From positions 1 through 21,803 of IMG/VR virus record IMGVR_UViG_3300032073_000301: DNA of 21,803 nucleotides. The stretch is one strand, 5' to 3'. The notes under the pieces are model-generated. The model saw only the letters and a list, made by a program, of their open reading frames with translations, did no database searches and had not been told where the DNA came from. Source of the stretch: a virus. Below are positions 2,436 to 14,951 of the stretch, one piece after another. Made by a program: the position numbers and the translations under genes. Position 1 is the stretch's first letter; every line of letters starts with the position of its first letter.

Positions 2436-3101
2436 TCATTTCTCCTGTATATATTGTGGTGCCAACCCGTTTGCTAATTCCATGTAGCGATCTACGTTCA
2501 CCTCATGCCAACCTTTATTGCCTACCTTTTCCTTTTGCGCTACCCGAAACACTTCGTTGCTCAACATATGTAGCCGATTGTCATTTGGTTTCAAGTTAAA
2601 CGTTTTACGGATTTCTTCTTTTACGATCATTGCATTTTTTTGGTTTGTCCTGACTCGCTCCATCCACGTATTTGCCTCTGAGGATGTTACTGCTTTTTCT
2701 TGCCATTCTCTTGATTGGTTGATGCTCTCCCTGCGCTCTTTTTCGTCGTTTTTTCTTTTTTCGATTTCTTGGTGATGGACGTATATACGAGTTACGGTTG
2801 GTTTTATAACGCAACGTTGCCGTCCGTGTTCTAATGTTGTGTCTCTTGCATATGATTTTAATGCGTACTCGAAATTGTCCATGCCGATATCTGCTACGAG
2901 GCCACCGTATACATGCCCGTCGTCCTCTGTGATTTCTTGCATTTGCCACATTGATCGCATGTAGCGCATACATTCGCGGAATCTTGGCAGGTCAGATTTT
3001 TCTACGGGGATTTCTCTTTTGGAGCGGTCATCCTTAGAATTGGGGTGCGTCCCAATCAGACTCGCTCCGAAAATTTTTGAGATTTCGGTCGGTTCTGTCA
3101 T
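2436..3101 (-). CDS. Hypothetical protein, 221 aa, in replication/recombination operon
   Basis: I do not recognise the family. The N-terminal half contains a compact segment with many aromatic and Met residues (about 40-90). The middle is a highly charged helix likely to be coiled coil (about 110-150, HHQEIEKRKNDEKERRES). The C-terminus is helical (KVGNKGWHEVNVDRYMELA). The ATG at 3101 has an AGGAGG SD 9 nt upstream, and the gene overlaps the winged-helix gene by 68 nt in another frame. In many phages a partner or helicase loader follows the winged-helix initiator, so a replication accessory role is possible but unproven. Confidence 0.65.
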   Translation of the reverse strand: MTEPTEISKIFGASLIGTHPNSKDDRSKREIPVEKSDLPRFRECMRYMRSMWQMQEITEDDGHVYGGLVADIGMDNFEYALKSYARDTTLEHGRQRCVIKPTVTRIYVHHQEIEKRKNDEKERRESINQSREWQEKAVTSSEANTWMERVRTNQKNAMIVKEEIRKTFNLKPNDNRLHMLSNEVFRVAQKEKVGNKGWHEVNVDRYMELANGLAPQYIQEK

Positions 3102-3726
3102 CTGCGTTTCCTCCTGATGTTGTGTCCCACGACATTACGGTTGCCCAAGTCAAATTCCCCTTACTTGTCCGTTGCGTGAGTTGGTGTGGACCCCTGCGTA
3201 TTATCCACATAAAAGTATTGGGGTCTGAAAATACTTTTTTAACTATTGTTGCTATTGTGACGATACTTAATTGATATTTATGGTGTAGGTCGCGTAATGC
3301 TCCAACCTGCATAGATTCTCGCGGATAGGTTGGGAACGAATTAACCATAGCTGTAGATGCCTTTTTCCACAAGTCCCACAGCAATTTTGCGTCATAATCA
3401 GGGTCAGGAATAAATGTAGGAGAGGTGTCCCAATCTACCGTCTCTTCCGTAACCTGTTCACCATTAGCGTATGTGACCACATTGTCGGGTATAGACCTGT
3501 CTACCGTAACCTCAGGTATATATTGAATTGTGCGGTTTCGGTTCGTTCCCTCTAACCTGATCTTGCCTTCTGCTGACAGTTCTTTAATGTATTTTTCTAT
3601 CGTGTTTTTGCTTATCCCTATGTCGTAGGTAGTGCGGAAATATAGAGCAATGTAACGAGCCGAACTCTTCATCGGTGTCATAGCTTGGTGAGCAAAAAAT
3701 TCAGATAATCGTTGCTTGTTCGTCAT
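3034..3726 (-). CDS. Winged-helix protein, possible replication initiator
   Basis: 230 aa from the ATG at 3726, chosen because GAGGG lies 10 nt upstream and ATGA couples it to the previous gene; a TTG start at 3756 would add 10 residues. The N-terminus (SARYIALYFRTTYDIGISKNTIEKYIKELSAEGKIRLEG, in two helices plus a wing) resembles a winged HTH. A second conserved-looking domain follows (about 105-200, LLWDLWKKASTAM ... WIIRRGPHQLTQ). This arrangement occurs in lambda O/DnaD-like phage replication proteins, and the neighbours are recombination genes. Function is inferred from architecture and context. Confidence 0.6.
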   Translation of the reverse strand: MTNKQRLSEFFAHQAMTPMKSSARYIALYFRTTYDIGISKNTIEKYIKELSAEGKIRLEGTNRNRTIQYIPEVTVDRSIPDNVVTYANGEQVTEETVDWDTSPTFIPDPDYDAKLLWDLWKKASTAMVNSFPTYPRESMQVGALRDLHHKYQLSIVTIATIVKKVFSDPNTFMWIIRRGPHQLTQRTSKGNLTWATVMSWDTTSGGNADDRTDRNLKNFRSESDWDAPQF

Positions 3727-3896
3727 TGTAATTTTTCCCTCATAGACTTTATCCAATCTTCAGTGGAGCGAAATCCTTTATATGATGAGCAGGGAGAGAA
3801 TCCACTCCTGAGGATGTCCGTAACAACCCCAACCAACTCGTCAGGAGCTACCCTGTCGAGAAGGTCTCTGATCATATTCAGCTCTTTACTACTCAT
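3723..3896 (-). CDS. Small protein, 57 aa
   Basis: This ORF fills the gap between the Rad52-type gene and the winged-helix gene. It reads MSSKELNMIRDLLDRVAP... to ...SMREKLQ and ends in TGA. Its ATG overlaps the Rad52 stop as ATGA with a GAGGGG SD just upstream, and its own TGA overlaps the next ATG the same way, so all three are translationally coupled. The sequence is mostly helical and acidic/basic with no known domain. The perfect end-to-end fit supports a real gene. Confidence 0.75.
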   Translation of the reverse strand: MSSKELNMIRDLLDRVAPDELVGVVTDILRSGFSPCSSYKGFRSTEDWIKSMREKLQ

Positions 3897-5979: not shown

Positions 5980-6219
5980 TTAGATTCTTCCCCAAAGATG
6001 TGATTCAAGATATTCCATATGTTCACCCGAACGGGTTACTACCTCAACAATATAACCAAGGGTCATAGTCGTTTTCAGCAAGTGAAAGTTTACGCTGTTA
6101 ACTGCTTTGACTACGCGTGCTGTAGTTGGGTCGTCTGATCCTACGTCATTGATGTATTCTTGCTTGGCGCGTTCTGCGTGTTCGGTTGTCTTGAAGATGT
6201 TTTTTGGTAGAATTTTCAT
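5980..6219 (-). CDS. Hypothetical protein, 79 aa
   Basis: The start at 6219 (MKILPKNIFK) is chosen because ACAGGAGA lies 8 nt upstream. An open frame extending to 6294 would run back through the promoter and is not credible. The protein is basic at its N-terminus and shows two beta-like stretches (NFHLLKTTMTLGYIVEVV); no domain is recognised. It is the first gene after early promoter copy 2. Confidence 0.7.
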   Translation of the reverse strand: MKILPKNIFKTTEHAERAKQEYINDVGSDDPTTARVVKAVNSVNFHLLKTTMTLGYIVEVVTRSGEHMEYLESHLWGRI

Positions 6220-6265
6220 TTTGATTCTCCTGTAAAATTGTGTGGTGTTTTTTAAATCTATAACT

Positions 6266-6294
6266 AATATAAAACAATTCGTTTCAGAACACAA
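6266..6294 (-). promoter_or_regulatory. Leftward early promoter, copy 2
   Basis: TTGTGT, a 17-nt spacer and TATATT on the minus strand, with an A-rich tract upstream. The spacer is identical to copy 3 (7249-7277). The AACAC half of the inverted repeat is altered here (GTC instead of GTG on the plus strand). It drives 5980-6219 and probably the genes down to 4666. Confidence 0.75.
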
Positions 6295-6323
6295 GTCTTT
6301 TTTTGACTTTTTTTTATTTTTTT

Positions 6324-6680
6324 TTACAGTAAGCTATTCAAAACCGATCTTACTTCCTTTACCCTACAAAAAGCGATCTCTTTCTTGAACCTGTTCATCA
6401 TAACTGCATCAACTTTCACCCAACTAACGTTTCCTCCCTTACTCAAAAGTTCTTCTATCTCAAAAACGGCACTACTCGTTCGCGTCTCGCCATTGGCTTG
6501 TTCGTAGCCATTTTCCCAAGTCATTTCAATCGCTTCAAATCCGTATTCGATTTTCTTGGTATACCGTTGGTGAGTCCAAAATCGTAGTTTCCATTTAATG
6601 TTGCGCGTCTTTGCTTTCCCGTTTTCTATTTCGCGCTCTTGCGTATGAACGAATCGCGTTCCACCTTCTACTAATTGCAT
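6324..6680 (-). CDS. Hypothetical protein, 118 aa
   Basis: No family is recognised. Its sequence is rich in aromatic residues and beta-forming stretches (IKWKLRFWTHQRYTKKIEYG, AIEMTWENGY), followed by a helical, basic C-terminus. The ATG has an ACAGGAGAAA SD and CACCAC 4 nt further up. A hairpin terminator sits immediately upstream of that leader, so expression depends on readthrough from the promoter at 7249 or on an unseen promoter. Confidence 0.7.
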   Translation of the reverse strand: MQLVEGGTRFVHTQEREIENGKAKTRNIKWKLRFWTHQRYTKKIEYGFEAIEMTWENGYEQANGETRTSSAVFEIEELLSKGGNVSWVKVDAVMMNRFKKEIAFCRVKEVRSVLNSLL

Positions 6681-6750: not shown

Positions 6751-7203
6751 TTATTTTGCTCTTATTTTGAAGGTAAACTCTTTGTATCCCTTCGTCTCAA
6801 ATTCGGTTTGAAATCTATCGCTTGCAATCATGTGATTAATAACTGCCATTTGAAAATGATCCAACCACTCAGACCACGAATCCATCGCTTCGTCTGTATT
6901 GTCTACGCCTTTCGGGCCTTGCTTGATTGAAGGTATAACCTTTATTTTGCAGTTGGGGTCTTGAACGCCACCGTAAAAGAATCCAAGACTTTCGCTGACG
7001 CAGATTTCATTTAAATCATAGTTAATAGCATCCTCATCCATCCATTTATCTGAACCGACCGAAAAACGATGTAATTCGTTAGCCGTATCAACGATTGCGT
7101 TGTGCCACGCCCGTGCGTGAGCTTTTTCCACGACAGATTCTAAAGCCGAATCTTCCATTTGGCCGTTGGCGATCATTTTGGTGATGGTTTCTAAATTTGT
7201 CAT
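6751..7203 (-). CDS. Hypothetical protein, 150 aa, first leftward gene
   Basis: The start at 7203 (MTNLETITKM) has an ACAGGAGAAA SD and is preceded by the CACCAC motif; the extra 13 codons upstream are leader. The sequence is acidic, with a helical N-terminus (ARAWHNAIVDTANELHRF) and a C-terminal DHFQMAVINHMIASDRFQ helix. No family is recognised. As the gene next to the divergent control region, with a strong promoter and its own terminator, it is likely to be among the first and most highly expressed genes. Host-takeover proteins often sit here, but that role is inference. Confidence 0.72.
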   Translation of the reverse strand: MTNLETITKMIANGQMEDSALESVVEKAHARAWHNAIVDTANELHRFSVGSDKWMDEDAINYDLNEICVSESLGFFYGGVQDPNCKIKVIPSIKQGPKGVDNTDEAMDSWSEWLDHFQMAVINHMIASDRFQTEFETKGYKEFTFKIRAK

Positions 7204-7248
7204 TGTGTTTCTCCTGTGAGAGTGTGTGGTGTTTTTTAACATACACTA

Positions 7249-7277
7249 ATTATAAAACAATTCGTTTCAGAACACAA
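7249..7277 (-). promoter_or_regulatory. Leftward early promoter, copy 3
   Basis: TTGTGT, a 17-nt spacer and TATAAT on the minus strand, with a perfect AACAC-TT-GTGTT inverted repeat at the -35 and a long A-rich tract upstream (7279-7309). It is the main promoter out of the control region into the leftward module. Confidence 0.8.
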
Positions 7278-7310
7278 GTGTTTTTTTATATTTTTTTTAT
7301 TTTTTTTTAA

Positions 7311-7442
7311 GAGGGTGAGTTAAGTTTTTAAAAAAACAACCATTTACGTCCGTACACAATATATAGTAGGGGCGGTTAAATCGTTGAAAAACAACAAATT
7401 ACGCAAACAAGAGGGTCAGTTGAGGGTCAGTTAGGGTCAGTT
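7311..7442 (+). repeat. 11-bp iterons (GAGGGTCAGTT)
   Basis: Three copies are directly tandem at 7411-7421, 7422-7432 and 7433-7442 (the last lacks the first G), and a related copy GAGGGTGAGTT lies at 7311-7321. The exact 11-bp period puts every unit on the same helix face. Tandem units next to an AT-rich block suggest initiator-binding iterons or an operator between the divergent modules. Confidence 0.75.
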
Positions 7443-9263: not shown

Positions 9264-9944
9264 ATGGCACGTAAATCCCTACCTGTAACGTGTGATCCCG
9301 AAGGTCGTTTGCAACGGGTTCCACTGAAAGAGTTACAGCAGTTTCAAGGCGCATTAAAGACACTGTATAAACCTGCGTATGAAAAGCTAAAGTCCTCTTT
9401 TCAAGAGTTTGGATTCGCTTTTCCTATGTTTATTTGGCATGGTCATAATAAGATTTTAGACGGACACCAAAGGCTTCACGTCCTAACCAAAGAGGGTTGG
9501 GATGTAAAAGGTGGCGTTCCTGTCGTTGCGGTGACGGGCGAAACTGAAGCGGAAGTTGCCAAGAAAATACTTATTATAAGTTCTCAGTATGGCAAAATTA
9601 ACGAGCAGGGGTTATATGAGTTTACGGAAAATTTTTCAATTCCGCTCACGGAATTCAAGTTGCCCGAACTGTCGGATATTGACATGGATCGGTTCATGGC
9701 ATCTTTCTATGAAGATTTTGATTTGCCTGAAGATGGTGATATTGGCGGTTATATGGATGACGAGGATCTTGGACCTGCGGAGGCGCAAGCAATATCGCAA
9801 GTAATATTATATTTCAAGCAAGCGGAATACAGTGAGATAATCAACAAAATGGAAGAGCTTATAGAAAATACAGACGACGAATTGATAGACGACCCTTCTT
9901 CACTGTTAATTTCGCTCGTAAGGAAGGCGCATGAAGCAAATTGA
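9264..9944 (+). CDS. ParB-like nuclease-fold protein linked to TET/JBP
   Basis: 226 aa from the ATG at 9264, which has AAGGAGAG 4-10 nt upstream; an open frame back to 9159 would use the -35 box as a TTG start and is rejected. The ParB/sulfiredoxin core is visible as FGFAFPMFIWHGHNKILDGHQRL (49-71 in outline), with the DGHQR motif at 66-70, and a second segment VPVVAVTGETEAEVAKKI. There is no ParB HTH or dimerisation domain, so plasmid partitioning is unlikely. The C-terminal half is acidic (DLPEDGDIGGYMDDEDLG) then helical. ParB-like proteins next to TET/JBP dioxygenases and terminases are a described phage arrangement; their exact role (nuclease, kinase or modification partner) is unsettled. 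It overlaps the dioxygenase by 14 nt. Confidence 0.82.
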   Translation: MARKSLPVTCDPEGRLQRVPLKELQQFQGALKTLYKPAYEKLKSSFQEFGFAFPMFIWHGHNKILDGHQRLHVLTKEGWDVKGGVPVVAVTGETEAEVAKKILIISSQYGKINEQGLYEFTENFSIPLTEFKLPELSDIDMDRFMASFYEDFDLPEDGDIGGYMDDEDLGPAEAQAISQVILYFKQAEYSEIINKMEELIENTDDELIDDPSSLLISLVRKAHEAN

Positions 9945-10821
9945 CGTTGCTAAACGCAACTACCCTGTTGATAAAGCTAACAAGCAATACGCAAGGGAAG
10001 ATGACGTTGATGAAATAATAAAGCCACCATTTCATTTAACTGCAGACGGTAGACGCATTGCTTCCGCTGTTATAATGGATTCACCAACCCTTGACGTAGT
10101 GGAGAAGACAATAAGAAAAGTTGAGTATCATACGGCTACAAGATTGTCGGGGTTTGATTCTACTTCTCGAATATTTGGCTACAAGCCACGCGACCCTGTT
10201 CGTAACCCTTTTTGCTCTGCAACTAAACTTGCGGAAAAGGAACCATCAACATTTCGTGCCGTTTGTGGTTTGGCTACCGATATAGAGCGTGACTACAAAA
10301 AATTATTCCCTGCACAATACAAGGATCACACAGAGAAGGTCTCTGAGGTGTCTAAAGAATACCGTATGGGGGAAACCGTGTTCACTTCGGGTATAATTAA
10401 TAAAGACAATCAACTACCTTACCATTACGATGTCGGGAACTTTAATGACGTTGTTTCGTGTATGGTTTCTTTTACGTCGGGGGTAGACGGTGGAAATCTT
10501 TTGATGCCCGAATATAACGTAGGCATAGAAACCACTAACAGGTCGCTGATTATATTTAACGGGCAAGGAGTCTTGCATGGTGTGTCTCCTTTTGATATAT
10601 CAAGCAAAGGGTATCGTTATACACTTGTTTACTATTCACTTAAGAAAATGTGGGAATGCCTTACTCCTGACGAAGAGTTAAAACGGGTTCGGGCGTATAG
10701 AAGAGAACAGCTACTAAAACGAGCCAACGATCCTGATTATAAAAAGACCAACGAAGGGCGCGACAGGCTTGGACGGAATAGAGTTATGATGCGCTCTCGT
10801 AAGCGAAAAAAAAAGAATTAA
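9931..10821 (+). CDS. TET/JBP-family 2-oxoglutarate/Fe(II) dioxygenase
   Basis: 296 aa. The double-stranded beta-helix ligands are readable: HYD (H165, D167), the distal histidine in GVLHGVSPF (H216), and an arginine for 2-oxoglutarate in YRYTLVYY (R229), with a DGGNLLMPE strand between them. The upstream region (GFDSTSRIFGYKPR, C95) fits the N-terminal part of phage TET/JBP proteins. Such enzymes oxidise the methyl of 5-methylpyrimidines in DNA, giving 5-hydroxymethylcytosine or 5-hydroxymethyluracil. The tail (RSRKRKKKN) is strongly basic and may bind DNA. ParB-like upstream and terminase downstream match known neighbourhoods. A different 2OG oxygenase, such as a prolyl hydroxylase, is the main alternative. 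Confidence 0.82.
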   Translation: MKQIDVAKRNYPVDKANKQYAREDDVDEIIKPPFHLTADGRRIASAVIMDSPTLDVVEKTIRKVEYHTATRLSGFDSTSRIFGYKPRDPVRNPFCSATKLAEKEPSTFRAVCGLATDIERDYKKLFPAQYKDHTEKVSEVSKEYRMGETVFTSGIINKDNQLPYHYDVGNFNDVVSCMVSFTSGVDGGNLLMPEYNVGIETTNRSLIIFNGQGVLHGVSPFDISSKGYRYTLVYYSLKKMWECLTPDEELKRVRAYRREQLLKRANDPDYKKTNEGRDRLGRNRVMMRSRKRKKKN

Positions 10822-12580: not shown

Positions 12581-12855
12581 TGACAGAATTGATAGCGATT
12601 GTCTTAATCTTATTTGTCTGCCTTTTTGATGCCTTGCGCGATGCGTGGATGCGTAGCGAGGGATGGTGGAAGCGTCACTGCGTGAAATGGATCAGCTTTT
12701 ATAGTCCGTTGGCCTTCATATCGGTGTTGCACGTTCGTTGGGAGTATTGGATACCGTTAACGATAGCGTCGTGGTTGGTTTGGAGAGCGTCGCTGTTTTA
12801 CATTGGCGGTAAAAATTGGCCAAGCCATTGGACTCGTTATTTCCCTAAAGGTTGA
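12580..12855 (+). CDS. Small membrane protein, possible holin
   Basis: 91 aa. A hydrophobic N-terminal helix (ELIAIVLILFVCLFDAL, 3-19) is followed by a charged loop, then two more hydrophobic stretches (WISFYSPLAFISVL about 37-50 and WIPLTIASWLVWRASLFYI about 57-75), with a polar, basic C-terminus. Size and two to three membrane segments fit a holin, which the amidase would need. It is rich in Trp, and its place after TerL rather than beside the amidase makes the call tentative. Its stop codon merges into the first unit of the GATRCA array. Confidence 0.6.
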   Translation: MTELIAIVLILFVCLFDALRDAWMRSEGWWKRHCVKWISFYSPLAFISVLHVRWEYWIPLTIASWLVWRASLFYIGGKNWPSHWTRYFPKG

Positions 12856-12935
12856 TACAAAAACTGATGCAAAACTGATGCAATTATGATACAAAATAGA
12901 TGTTACGTGATTAAGATTGATTGATCTGATTAGGA
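12854..12935 (+). repeat. GATRCA repeat array A (short)
   Basis: About eight units of 9-12 bp starting with GAT: GATACAAAAACT, GATGCAAAACT, GATGCAATTAT, GATACAAAATA, GATGTTACGT, then degenerate GATT units. It starts at the stop codon of the membrane-protein gene and ends at the SD (AGGAGAG) of the zinc-ribbon gene. It is the same family as array B. Confidence 0.85.
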
Positions 12936-12942
12936 GAGCATA

Positions 12943-13065
12943 ATGATATACGCTAATTTGGTTTTGTCAGACTATGTCTGCCCTGCTTGCGGTGAATTTT
13001 TAGATTCATATGCCTGTAAATTGATCTGTCATAATTGTGGCCTACATTTTAGTTGTGATGAATGA
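12943..13065 (+). CDS. Zinc-ribbon mini-protein, 40 aa
   Basis: A 40-codon ORF with a good SD (TAGGAGAG, 5 nt spacing). Two C-x2-C knuckles, CPAC (13-16) and CHNC (29-32), each followed by Gly, form a textbook zinc ribbon. C25 and C38 are extra. It is the only coding stretch inside the GATRCA array, so it could bind the array, a polymerase or the packaging machinery; none of these is shown. Its size suggests an adaptor rather than an enzyme. Confidence 0.75.
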   Translation: MIYANLVLSDYVCPACGEFLDSYACKLICHNCGLHFSCDE

Positions 13066-13071
13066 GTAAGT

Positions 13072-13580
13072 GATGCAAAAACGATACAAAAACGATACAA
13101 AATTGATGCAACTGTGATGCAATTATGATACAAAACTGATACACCTTGATTCAATTAGATGTAACTGCGCGACATTAGATGTAACTGCCACACATTAGAT
13201 ACATCTGCGTTCGATGAGATACGAAAATTTGGTATCTCATTCACATTAGACGTAACTGCCACACATTAGATACGCAGATACAAATTAGATACAAATTAGA
13301 TACAAAAATGATGCAATTATGATGTAAAAATGATGCAATTATGATGTAAAAATGATGTAAAAATGATGCAATTATGATGCAAAGTGATTAAATTAGATGC
13401 AATTAGACGTATCTCATTCACATTAGATACATCTGCTTGACATTAGATACCGTAGATACGCGCAGATACAAATTAGATACAAAGACGATACAAAGACGAT
13501 ACAAAACTGATACAAAAACGATTGAAGAATGATACAAAAACGATTAAAGAATGATGTTACGTGATGTTAACTGATTCAAA
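13072..13580 (+). repeat. GATRCA repeat array B (long, helically phased)
   Basis: About 41 degenerate units, nearly all beginning GAT followed by ACA, GCA or GTA. Units are mostly 11 bp (GATACAAAAAC, GATGCAATTAT, GATGTAAAAAT, GATACAAATTA) or 20 bp (CATTAGATGTAACTGCCACA type). Blocks alternate: 11-bp units at 13072-13140, 20-bp units to about 13265, 11-bp units to about 13385, 20-bp units around 13405-13445, and 11-bp units to 13552. A 19-bp segment GTATCTCATTCACATTAGA occurs at 13232 and 13409. The unit length is not a multiple of 3 and stops are dense, so it is non-coding. A-tracts recur once per helical turn, predicting curved DNA. Confidence 0.9.
13214..13240. repeat. Perfect inverted repeat inside array B
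   Basis: Nine-bp arms ATGAGATAC (13214-13222) and GTATCTCAT (13232-13240) flank the 9-nt GAAAATTTG. It sits within the first 20-bp-unit block and could be a dimer binding site or a hairpin. Confidence 0.7.
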
Positions 13581-13589
13581 GAGGGTGGA

Positions 13590-14063
13590 ATGAGGATATT
13601 AATTTGCGGTATGCAAGGGACGGGGAAAACTTGGGTTATGCTTCAGCTCATTGAATTGATGAAAGCAAGTAAGAAGCGCAAGTATAAGACCGTCTATTAT
13701 CATCAGGGTGAAAACATAGCTATCGTTGGCAAGTATGACGGGCAGACGTTTCAAGGGAGCGATAGATTAAGCATGGGAGTTATGGCCGATATTGGAGGAA
13801 TGTTGGCACAGCACCGTGAGGGTAATGTAATTTTAGAGGGAGACAGGTTCACTAACGGGAAATTTATTAGCCGTTATAAGCCAACGATTATTTACATCAC
13901 AAGCGATGGATCTGAAGGAAGAAAGTTGCGCGGAAGCGATCAATCAGAGCGGACAATCAAGTCAATGGCTACAAGGCTAACGAACTTAGACCTTAAAGAA
14001 AGAGCGATAGCTGTTGAGGATTCAGCTACCGCTCTTGAAAAAATATTGGAACTATTAAAATAA
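13590..14063 (+). CDS. P-loop kinase, likely acting on hydroxymethylated DNA bases
   Basis: 157 aa. Walker A is GMQGTGKT (7-14), and a Walker B-like strand is VILEGDRF (80-87). Between them lie GKYDG (47-51) and FQGSDRLS (54-61), a combination I associate with the phage P-loop kinases described as 5-hydroxymethyl-dUMP-DNA kinases in hypermodifying phages. Those phosphorylate the hydroxymethyl group on DNA to prepare it for substitution. The gene follows array B with AGAGGGTGG as SD. With a TET/JBP dioxygenase upstream, the predicted substrate is its hydroxymethyl product. A small-molecule nucleoside kinase is the alternative. Confidence 0.72.
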   Translation: MRILICGMQGTGKTWVMLQLIELMKASKKRKYKTVYYHQGENIAIVGKYDGQTFQGSDRLSMGVMADIGGMLAQHREGNVILEGDRFTNGKFISRYKPTIIYITSDGSEGRKLRGSDQSERTIKSMATRLTNLDLKERAIAVEDSATALEKILELLK

Positions 14064-14627: not shown

Positions 14628-14849
14628 TTAGCTATTATGATTTTTCCAAGTTTGTAATTTATTCTTGTGTGCTTTTTTCAAGTTTTTAAGTATGCGCTGA
14701 TATCTGTCAATCTGTTCGTCAAGTTCTCTTATTTCTTTGGCTTCTTTTACGGAATCGTAAGGTTCTTCGCCAATGTCGAAATTATAAATTGCTTGACCGT
14801 CGTCTGTGGTGCCAACTTGGTTGCTTGGGTTTGCGTTTGATTTGTACAT
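14628..14849 (-). CDS. Hypothetical protein, 73 aa
   Basis: The N-terminus is polar and low-complexity (MYKSNANPSNQVGTTDDGQA). The rest is a charged helix predicted to coil (KEIRELDEQIDRYQRILKNL, then KKAHKNK). No family is recognised. TTAGGAGAAA precedes the ATG, with CACCAC 8 nt further up, and early promoter copy 4 lies 46 bp upstream. It heads the leftward cassette. Confidence 0.68.
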   Translation of the reverse strand: MYKSNANPSNQVGTTDDGQAIYNFDIGEEPYDSVKEAKEIRELDEQIDRYQRILKNLKKAHKNKLQTWKNHNS

Positions 14850-14894
14850 TTTGTTTCTCCTAATTAAGTGTGGTGTGTTTTAAAACTTATAACT

Positions 14895-14923
14895 AATATA
14901 AAACAAATCATTTCAGAACACAA
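14895..14923 (-). promoter_or_regulatory. Leftward early promoter, copy 4
   Basis: TTGTGT, a 17-nt spacer and TATATT on the minus strand, with the AACAC-TT-GTGTT repeat. Its A-rich upstream tract (about 14924-14962) merges into the start of the rightward DUF1064 gene. It is the only early-type promoter inside the rightward half. Confidence 0.75.
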
Positions 14924-14951
14924 GTGTTTTTTTAAAAAAAAAGGGAAAAAA

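Follow-up and report, generated by a model that had tools for sequence, protein, structure and literature searches.

The IMG/VR record IMGVR_UViG_3300032073_000301 is a 21.8-kb fragment of a virus of bacteria, and was analysed over its full length of 21,803 nt (the window). Genes between 26 and 7242 are on the minus strand, and comprise recombination, replication and small early genes. The rest are mostly on the plus strand, in the order amidase, SSB, ParB-like protein, TET/JBP dioxygenase, TerS, TerL, a 91-aa ORF, a 40-aa zinc-ribbon-like ORF, a P-loop ORF, then portal and capsid genes. Judged by the size of its closest complete relative (L002, a record of ~40 kb, with a TerL that is 83% identical), the window probably represents about half of the phage genome. 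Just downstream of terL is an array of ~47 head-to-tail units on the plus strand, with the core GAT(A/G)(C/T)AA. It is arranged in two noncoding blocks that flank the 40-codon ORF, each stopping 15–17 bp before a start codon, and the sequence TGTTACGTGAT is common to both blocks, near their downstream start codons. The features are as follows.

12854–12927, plus strand: block A, 6 units (at 12854, 12866, 12877, 12888, 12899 and 12909), stopping just before the RBS of the 40-aa ORF
12943–13065, plus strand: 40-codon zinc-ribbon-like ORF (CxxC...CxxC) between the blocks, 72% identical in L002
13072–13580, plus strand: block B, 41 units with no coding sequence, reaching to 17 bp upstream of the P-loop start codon
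13072–13148, plus strand: 7 units in strict 11-bp register, the earliest such run in block B
13158–13269, plus strand: 20-bp blocks CATTAGATRYANCTGCNNCA and a few irregular units
13213–13240, no strand assigned: inverted repeat ATGAGATAC-GAAAATTTG-GTATCTCAT within the array, from direct reading
13277–13386, plus strand: longest strict 11-bp run, 10 units
13308–13382, plus strand: seven successive 9-bp words ATGATGCAA/ATGATGTAA with 2-bp spacers, four being the exact reverse complement of the R388 stbDR consensus TTGCATCAT
13406–13455, plus strand: further 20-bp blocks, which have GTATCTCATTCACATTAGA in common with the first set
13465–13563, plus strand: final 11-bp run, of GATACAAAAAC type, ahead of the P-loop ORF; the contig L232 starts within it
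13590–14063, plus strand: kinase-like ORF with a P-loop (GMQGTGKT), immediately following block B

A preliminary description of this DNA counted about 49 units, spaced by 10–11 or 20 bp in alternating 11-bp and 20-bp blocks, within a single long noncoding tract. Chaining by hand gives 47 (6 in block A and 41 in block B). The 46 steps between them are mostly of 11 bp (26), with 9 at 10 bp, 6 at 20 bp and five of other lengths, among them the 163-bp gap over the ORF. The CATTAGATRYANCTGCNNCA blocks at 13158–13269 and 13406–13455 alternate with 11-bp runs as stated. The blocks are indeed noncoding, but the tract is split by the ORF at 12943–13065. Between 12850 and 13580, GATRYA occurs 33 times on the plus strand and twice on the minus strand, and the remaining 21 kb of the plus strand contains only 17 copies. 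Period analysis, which had been proposed as a check, agrees: the autocorrelation of 13056–13580 peaks at lags of 11, 22, 33 and 44 bp (z = 11.7, 8.3, 7.3 and 5.8 against shuffled sequences), and the periods reported by TRF are the same. Strand bias, autocorrelation and TRF all indicate that the array is real. GATRYA pairs elsewhere in the window were considered as a possible regulon, but none are at helical spacing.

Column conservation was calculated from the strict 11-bp register runs only, so that units within a run were not picked by motif. In this register GAT is retained in 30 of 31 units and AA in 29–30 of 31, while the linkers are variable, and positions 4–5 are purine-pyrimidine in most units. 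There are 17 distinct 11-mers, and GAT is invariant in all of them. Drift free of selection would not spare one set of columns. As GAT and AA are near-invariant while the linkers vary, the units look like maintained binding sites. Promoter-like sites are not in excess in the array region.

The steps between units tend to follow the helical repeat, with 38 of the 40 steps in block B lying within 1 bp of a multiple of 10.5 bp. The overall phase coherence at 10.5 bp per turn (R = 0.30) is no better than that of the same steps in random order (p = 0.94), which means that the units are in phase only over short runs, and that the idea that all of them lie on one helix face holds locally rather than across the array. 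A wedge model with Bolshoy parameters, which gave the expected results for phased and unphased A5 controls, supports the curved DNA that had been predicted. According to this model, the most curved 105-bp stretches of the whole window fall inside the array, and the mean end-to-end ratio of the array is 0.81, compared with 0.95 in dinucleotide shuffles (z = −12.8).

Two near-identical contigs contain the array. In L001 (~99.4% identical to the window) 188 bp are missing between two units, so the array is length-polymorphic; L232 begins inside the array and appears different near its 3′ end. The phage encodes a Rad52-type (Rad52_Rad22) annealing protein, which could promote such losses. The whole 40-kb record of L002 has no GATRYA triplet in 11-bp register and no tract with 10–11 bp periodicity, but does encode the 91-aa ORF (98% identical), TerS (82%, with an identical helix-turn-helix), the zinc ribbon (72%), the initiator (71%) and the ParB-like protein (64%). 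Since L002 keeps these proteins without an array, none of them needs it. This speaks against an essential role, and weakens the preliminary proposals that the array is a pac site read by TerS, a binding site for the ParB-like or zinc-ribbon protein, or a replication hub. The best match of the ParB-like protein is the methyltransferase-linked phrog_498, followed by ParB families, and no ParA was seen in the incomplete genome. Neither an integrase nor ParA was found among the L002 proteins examined, so plasmid-like prophage maintenance is not suggested for the group.

L002 also lacks an accessory set consisting of a PLP-enzyme-like ORF (509–1549), the TET/JBP dioxygenase (9931–10821) and the P-loop kinase-like ORF, possibly for DNA hypermodification. 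The joint absence of these genes and of the array from L002, a single comparison, fits the suggestion that the array is a target of the modification enzymes, but L067 has a TET gene and no array. Relatives of the P-loop ORF occur in 12 other viral contigs, none of which shows a periodic array, and the possibility that the array travels with the kinase gene was rejected.

A BLAST search of plasmids matched an operator of R388 and its IncW relatives that contains three TTGCATCAT repeats (33 bp, 91%, E = 0.04). The stbDRs of R388 form two sets, each of five 9-bp repeats of the consensus TTGCATCAT, with 2-nt spacers; they are bound by StbA, and are required in cis for StbA-dependent stability and for the effect of StbA on conjugation (PMC3098194). 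Besides binding there, StbA is a repressor of several plasmid promoters (PMC3937220). Reverse-complemented, the R388 consensus gives the window word ATGATGCAA, and the pitch is likewise 11 bp; this word match was found after the database search and rests on 9 bp. Seven copies occur in a row at 13308–13382, four exact and three with one mismatch, again with 2-bp spacers. When the window and stbDR profiles were compared, the same register and strand were chosen among 22 alignments, and the score was better than all 2000 column permutations. The agreement is specific to the R388 word, since the StbA-family arrays of P. syringae and IncI2 plasmids have other words, unlike that of the window. BLAST searches with the whole array against phages, and with its central 110 bp against plasmids and phages, found nothing (at E 10 for the latter). 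ArdK, the other direct-repeat reader of R388, was considered and rejected, as it binds TTGACA.

The resemblance to the stbDRs goes beyond the word, spacers and head-to-tail pitch. The R388 repeats also lie directly upstream of the RBS of a gene, with further sets of two or three copies in other promoters. In the plasmid they act both as a centromere-like site and as an operator. Judged from the sequence, the word and spacing of the window array are those already known in R388, but the array is far longer, ~47 units as opposed to two sets of five. Other differences are that the stbDRs are a plasmid stability site while the array is in the late region of a phage, and that stbA and stbB adjoin the repeats in R388 while neither was found here. 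An StbA-like protein was not detected in the 21.8-kb fragment by phmmer, by an HMM of nine StbA proteins or by hhalign, although a held-out family member used as a positive control scored 97% probability. None was found in the related contigs, and StbA has no match among 50,697 phage records. The family searches run on the window revealed no StbB/ParA-like gene, either next to the array or elsewhere, and the P-loop ORF beside it has only weak matches to other NTPase families. Because the StbA and StbB genes were sought and not found, the array is not classed as a member of the R388 stbDR/StbA type.

Ten StbA-family plasmid loci were compared, these being R388 (L438) and nine others (L440–L448) from Xanthomonas, Pseudomonas, Moraxella and IncI2 plasmids. 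In each of them, the repeats ahead of stbA recur most strongly at a lag of 11, 21 or 22 bp, and the words differ (e.g. CACTGCA in P. syringae). In this family the pitch of ~11 bp is kept while the word drifts, and such arrays can therefore be sought by period and not by sequence.

The explanation we tentatively favour, as plausible but far from assured, is that this is an extended cis-acting array for a helix-turn-helix protein, working like the stbDRs of R388. Column conservation, predicted curvature and a word and pitch shared with an array of proven binding sites all lend support to the cooperative protein binding suggested in the preliminary description. Along intrinsically curved DNA, the protein would recognise ATGATRCAA, a 9-bp word that recurs head to tail at one copy per turn of the helix, and many weak and drifting sites would be filled cooperatively to give a nucleoprotein tract. 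Such a tract may control the two genes whose RBSs adjoin the array (the zinc-ribbon and P-loop kinase-like ORFs), or might instead hold the DNA to some other end, for instance segregation or anchoring. The reader could be encoded by the host, by a resident plasmid, or by the phage itself outside the window, which would leave about half of the genome if its size is that of L002. That a protein binds the array, that it is StbA-like, and what its binding would do are matters that we infer. Counting against this explanation are the failure to find StbA, the shortness of the match (9 bp) and its discovery through a database search, the differing words of two other StbA-family arrays, the lack of an array in L002, the lack of any surplus of promoter-like sites, and the number of repeats in R388, just two sets of five. 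A more elaborate version, which we consider improbable, is that the array is a greatly enlarged site of the StbA type, which a virulent phage owes to descent or convergence. With it the phage would capture an StbA-like protein of a plasmid or host, or employ one of its own, and so anchor its DNA or organise it while infecting the cell, giving a segregation-type site a new function. Annotation can readily pass over long direct-repeat arrays in phages. If an StbA-like protein does bind this one, then a motor-less plasmid segregation site would have a phage counterpart, and the phage would provide, in much amplified natural form, a substrate on which to study how helix-turn-helix proteins bind head to tail along curved DNA.

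The strongest rival is that the array is an expanded satellite with no dedicated function, its 11-bp repeats growing and shrinking by recombination in a tolerant intergenic gap. This is rather unlikely, though it accords with the 188 bp missing from L001 at a unit boundary, the apparent difference in L232, the Rad52-type protein, and the lack of an array in L002 and other relatives. It also fits that bacterial and viral DNA commonly contains 11-bp tandem arrays with unrelated words. It does not easily account for the changes gathering in linker columns while GAT and AA stay fixed, where neutral drift would be uniform, nor for steps that keep to helical turns, and the linkers are too diverged for a recent burst. 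The proximity of the blocks to two start codons, with TGTTACGTGAT near each, would also suit an RNA-level leader, in which the repeats act in mRNA by binding a regulator or spacing the ribosome. A similar action has been proposed for the TAACTGA direct repeats upstream of Beggiatoaceae start codons, which are likewise long arrays of short repeats just before the start codon, but of a different word, a heptamer, and with no 11-bp pitch found in the text searched (PMC4679880). A leader is very unlikely: an Rfam search gave no match, and helical-turn spacing and predicted curvature point to DNA. Less likely still, the array might be a decoy, soaking up a regulator or an StbA-type protein that belongs to the host or to a resident plasmid. 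The many sites and the failure to find a cognate gene would suit a decoy, as would the word, which is the one read by a plasmid regulator with several promoters under its repression (PMC3937220).

Two further explanations depend on the position of the array. A packaging-initiation site (pac or cosB-like), with curved DNA wrapped by the TerS ring, is suggested by its place just downstream of terL. The TerS proteins of SPP1 and SF6 are thought to choose intrinsically bent pac DNA (PMC4737164, PMC4856287), and the DNA near the terminase genes is here predicted to be bent. Like the SPP1/SF6 pac and lambda cosB sites, the array combines intrinsic bending (as modelled) with repeats near terminase genes; unlike them it is neither inside nor upstream of terS, has ~47 units, and is absent from a relative with the same TerS helix-turn-helix. 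Unrelated noncoding GATRYA arrays in viruses are near TerS/TerL (PHROG-confirmed) in ~6 of 15 cases at 11 bp and 4 of 16 at 10 bp, but control arrays with periods of 12, 13 or 14 bp are also near terminase genes in ~4–6 of 32 cases, judged by eye, so that the excess is suggestive only and not significant. Other relatives are without a strong bend near terL, and curvature conserved at that place was looked for in them and not found. Overall, packaging is a poor candidate. The alternative of replication-origin iterons seems slightly poorer. The window encodes an initiator-like winged-helix protein, several other viral contigs have 11-bp GATRYA repeats inside winged-helix initiator-like genes (named by sequence inspection), and lambda O is a precedent for iterons within an initiator gene. 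These phage-origin iterons resemble the array in being tandem words of ~11 bp. The array, however, is noncoding and lies 9 kb from the initiator gene (12.9–13.6 kb, as against 3034–3756), is not conserved with that gene in L002, and is distant from the GC-skew minimum near 7.0–7.5 kb.

Four GATRYA words at 11-bp pitch were found in 35 viral stretches and more than 117 bacterial-genome stretches. These are of mixed kinds: initiator-gene repeats, noncoding arrays near terminase, and Lachnospiraceae promoters. The repeats inside winged-helix initiator-like genes (L083, L089, L092, L100, L102, L109 and L111) are as expected for origin iterons. An unrelated contig (L087, 3345–7310) has an 11-bp GATATA array between TerL and portal, matching the relative place of the window array. 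The Lachnospiraceae promoters (L115, L126, L145, L148, L193, L196, L200, L213 and L229) contain four TGATGCAA repeats at 11-bp pitch, and in 9 of 11 sites a −10-like hexamer occurs exactly 9 bp past the last unit. They share their word and pitch with the window array, in which no such box is seen. OmpR/PhoB-type boxes are also 11-bp direct repeats, but only the Lachnospiraceae promoters resemble them, and this class was rejected for the window as it lacks the −10 spacing. In L108 (1290–3270), a ParA-like gene is followed by an ORF with two clusters of GATACAACATA repeats in its coding sequence, possibly a centromere inside a partition gene.

Two other repeated elements were noted in the window. 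One is a conserved element of ~100 bp that precedes many early genes (395–520, 6200–6340, 7180–7330 and 14830–14950, minus strand), with eight more in L002. It includes phased A-tracts, CTTGAC/CTTGTG, TATATT, ACACACCACA, and AGGAGAAA just before the ATG, and looks like a repeated promoter of the sigma-70 type, in which an A-tract upstream region is combined with a strong RBS. The other is a second set of 10/11-bp direct repeats, AGGGTCAGTT, at 7412–7442 and 7312–7321, in a divergent intergenic region, close to where the GC skew is lowest. L002 has three copies of this 10-mer near the corresponding place (6995, 7050 and 7116), with other spacings, and these repeats are a candidate origin or operator.
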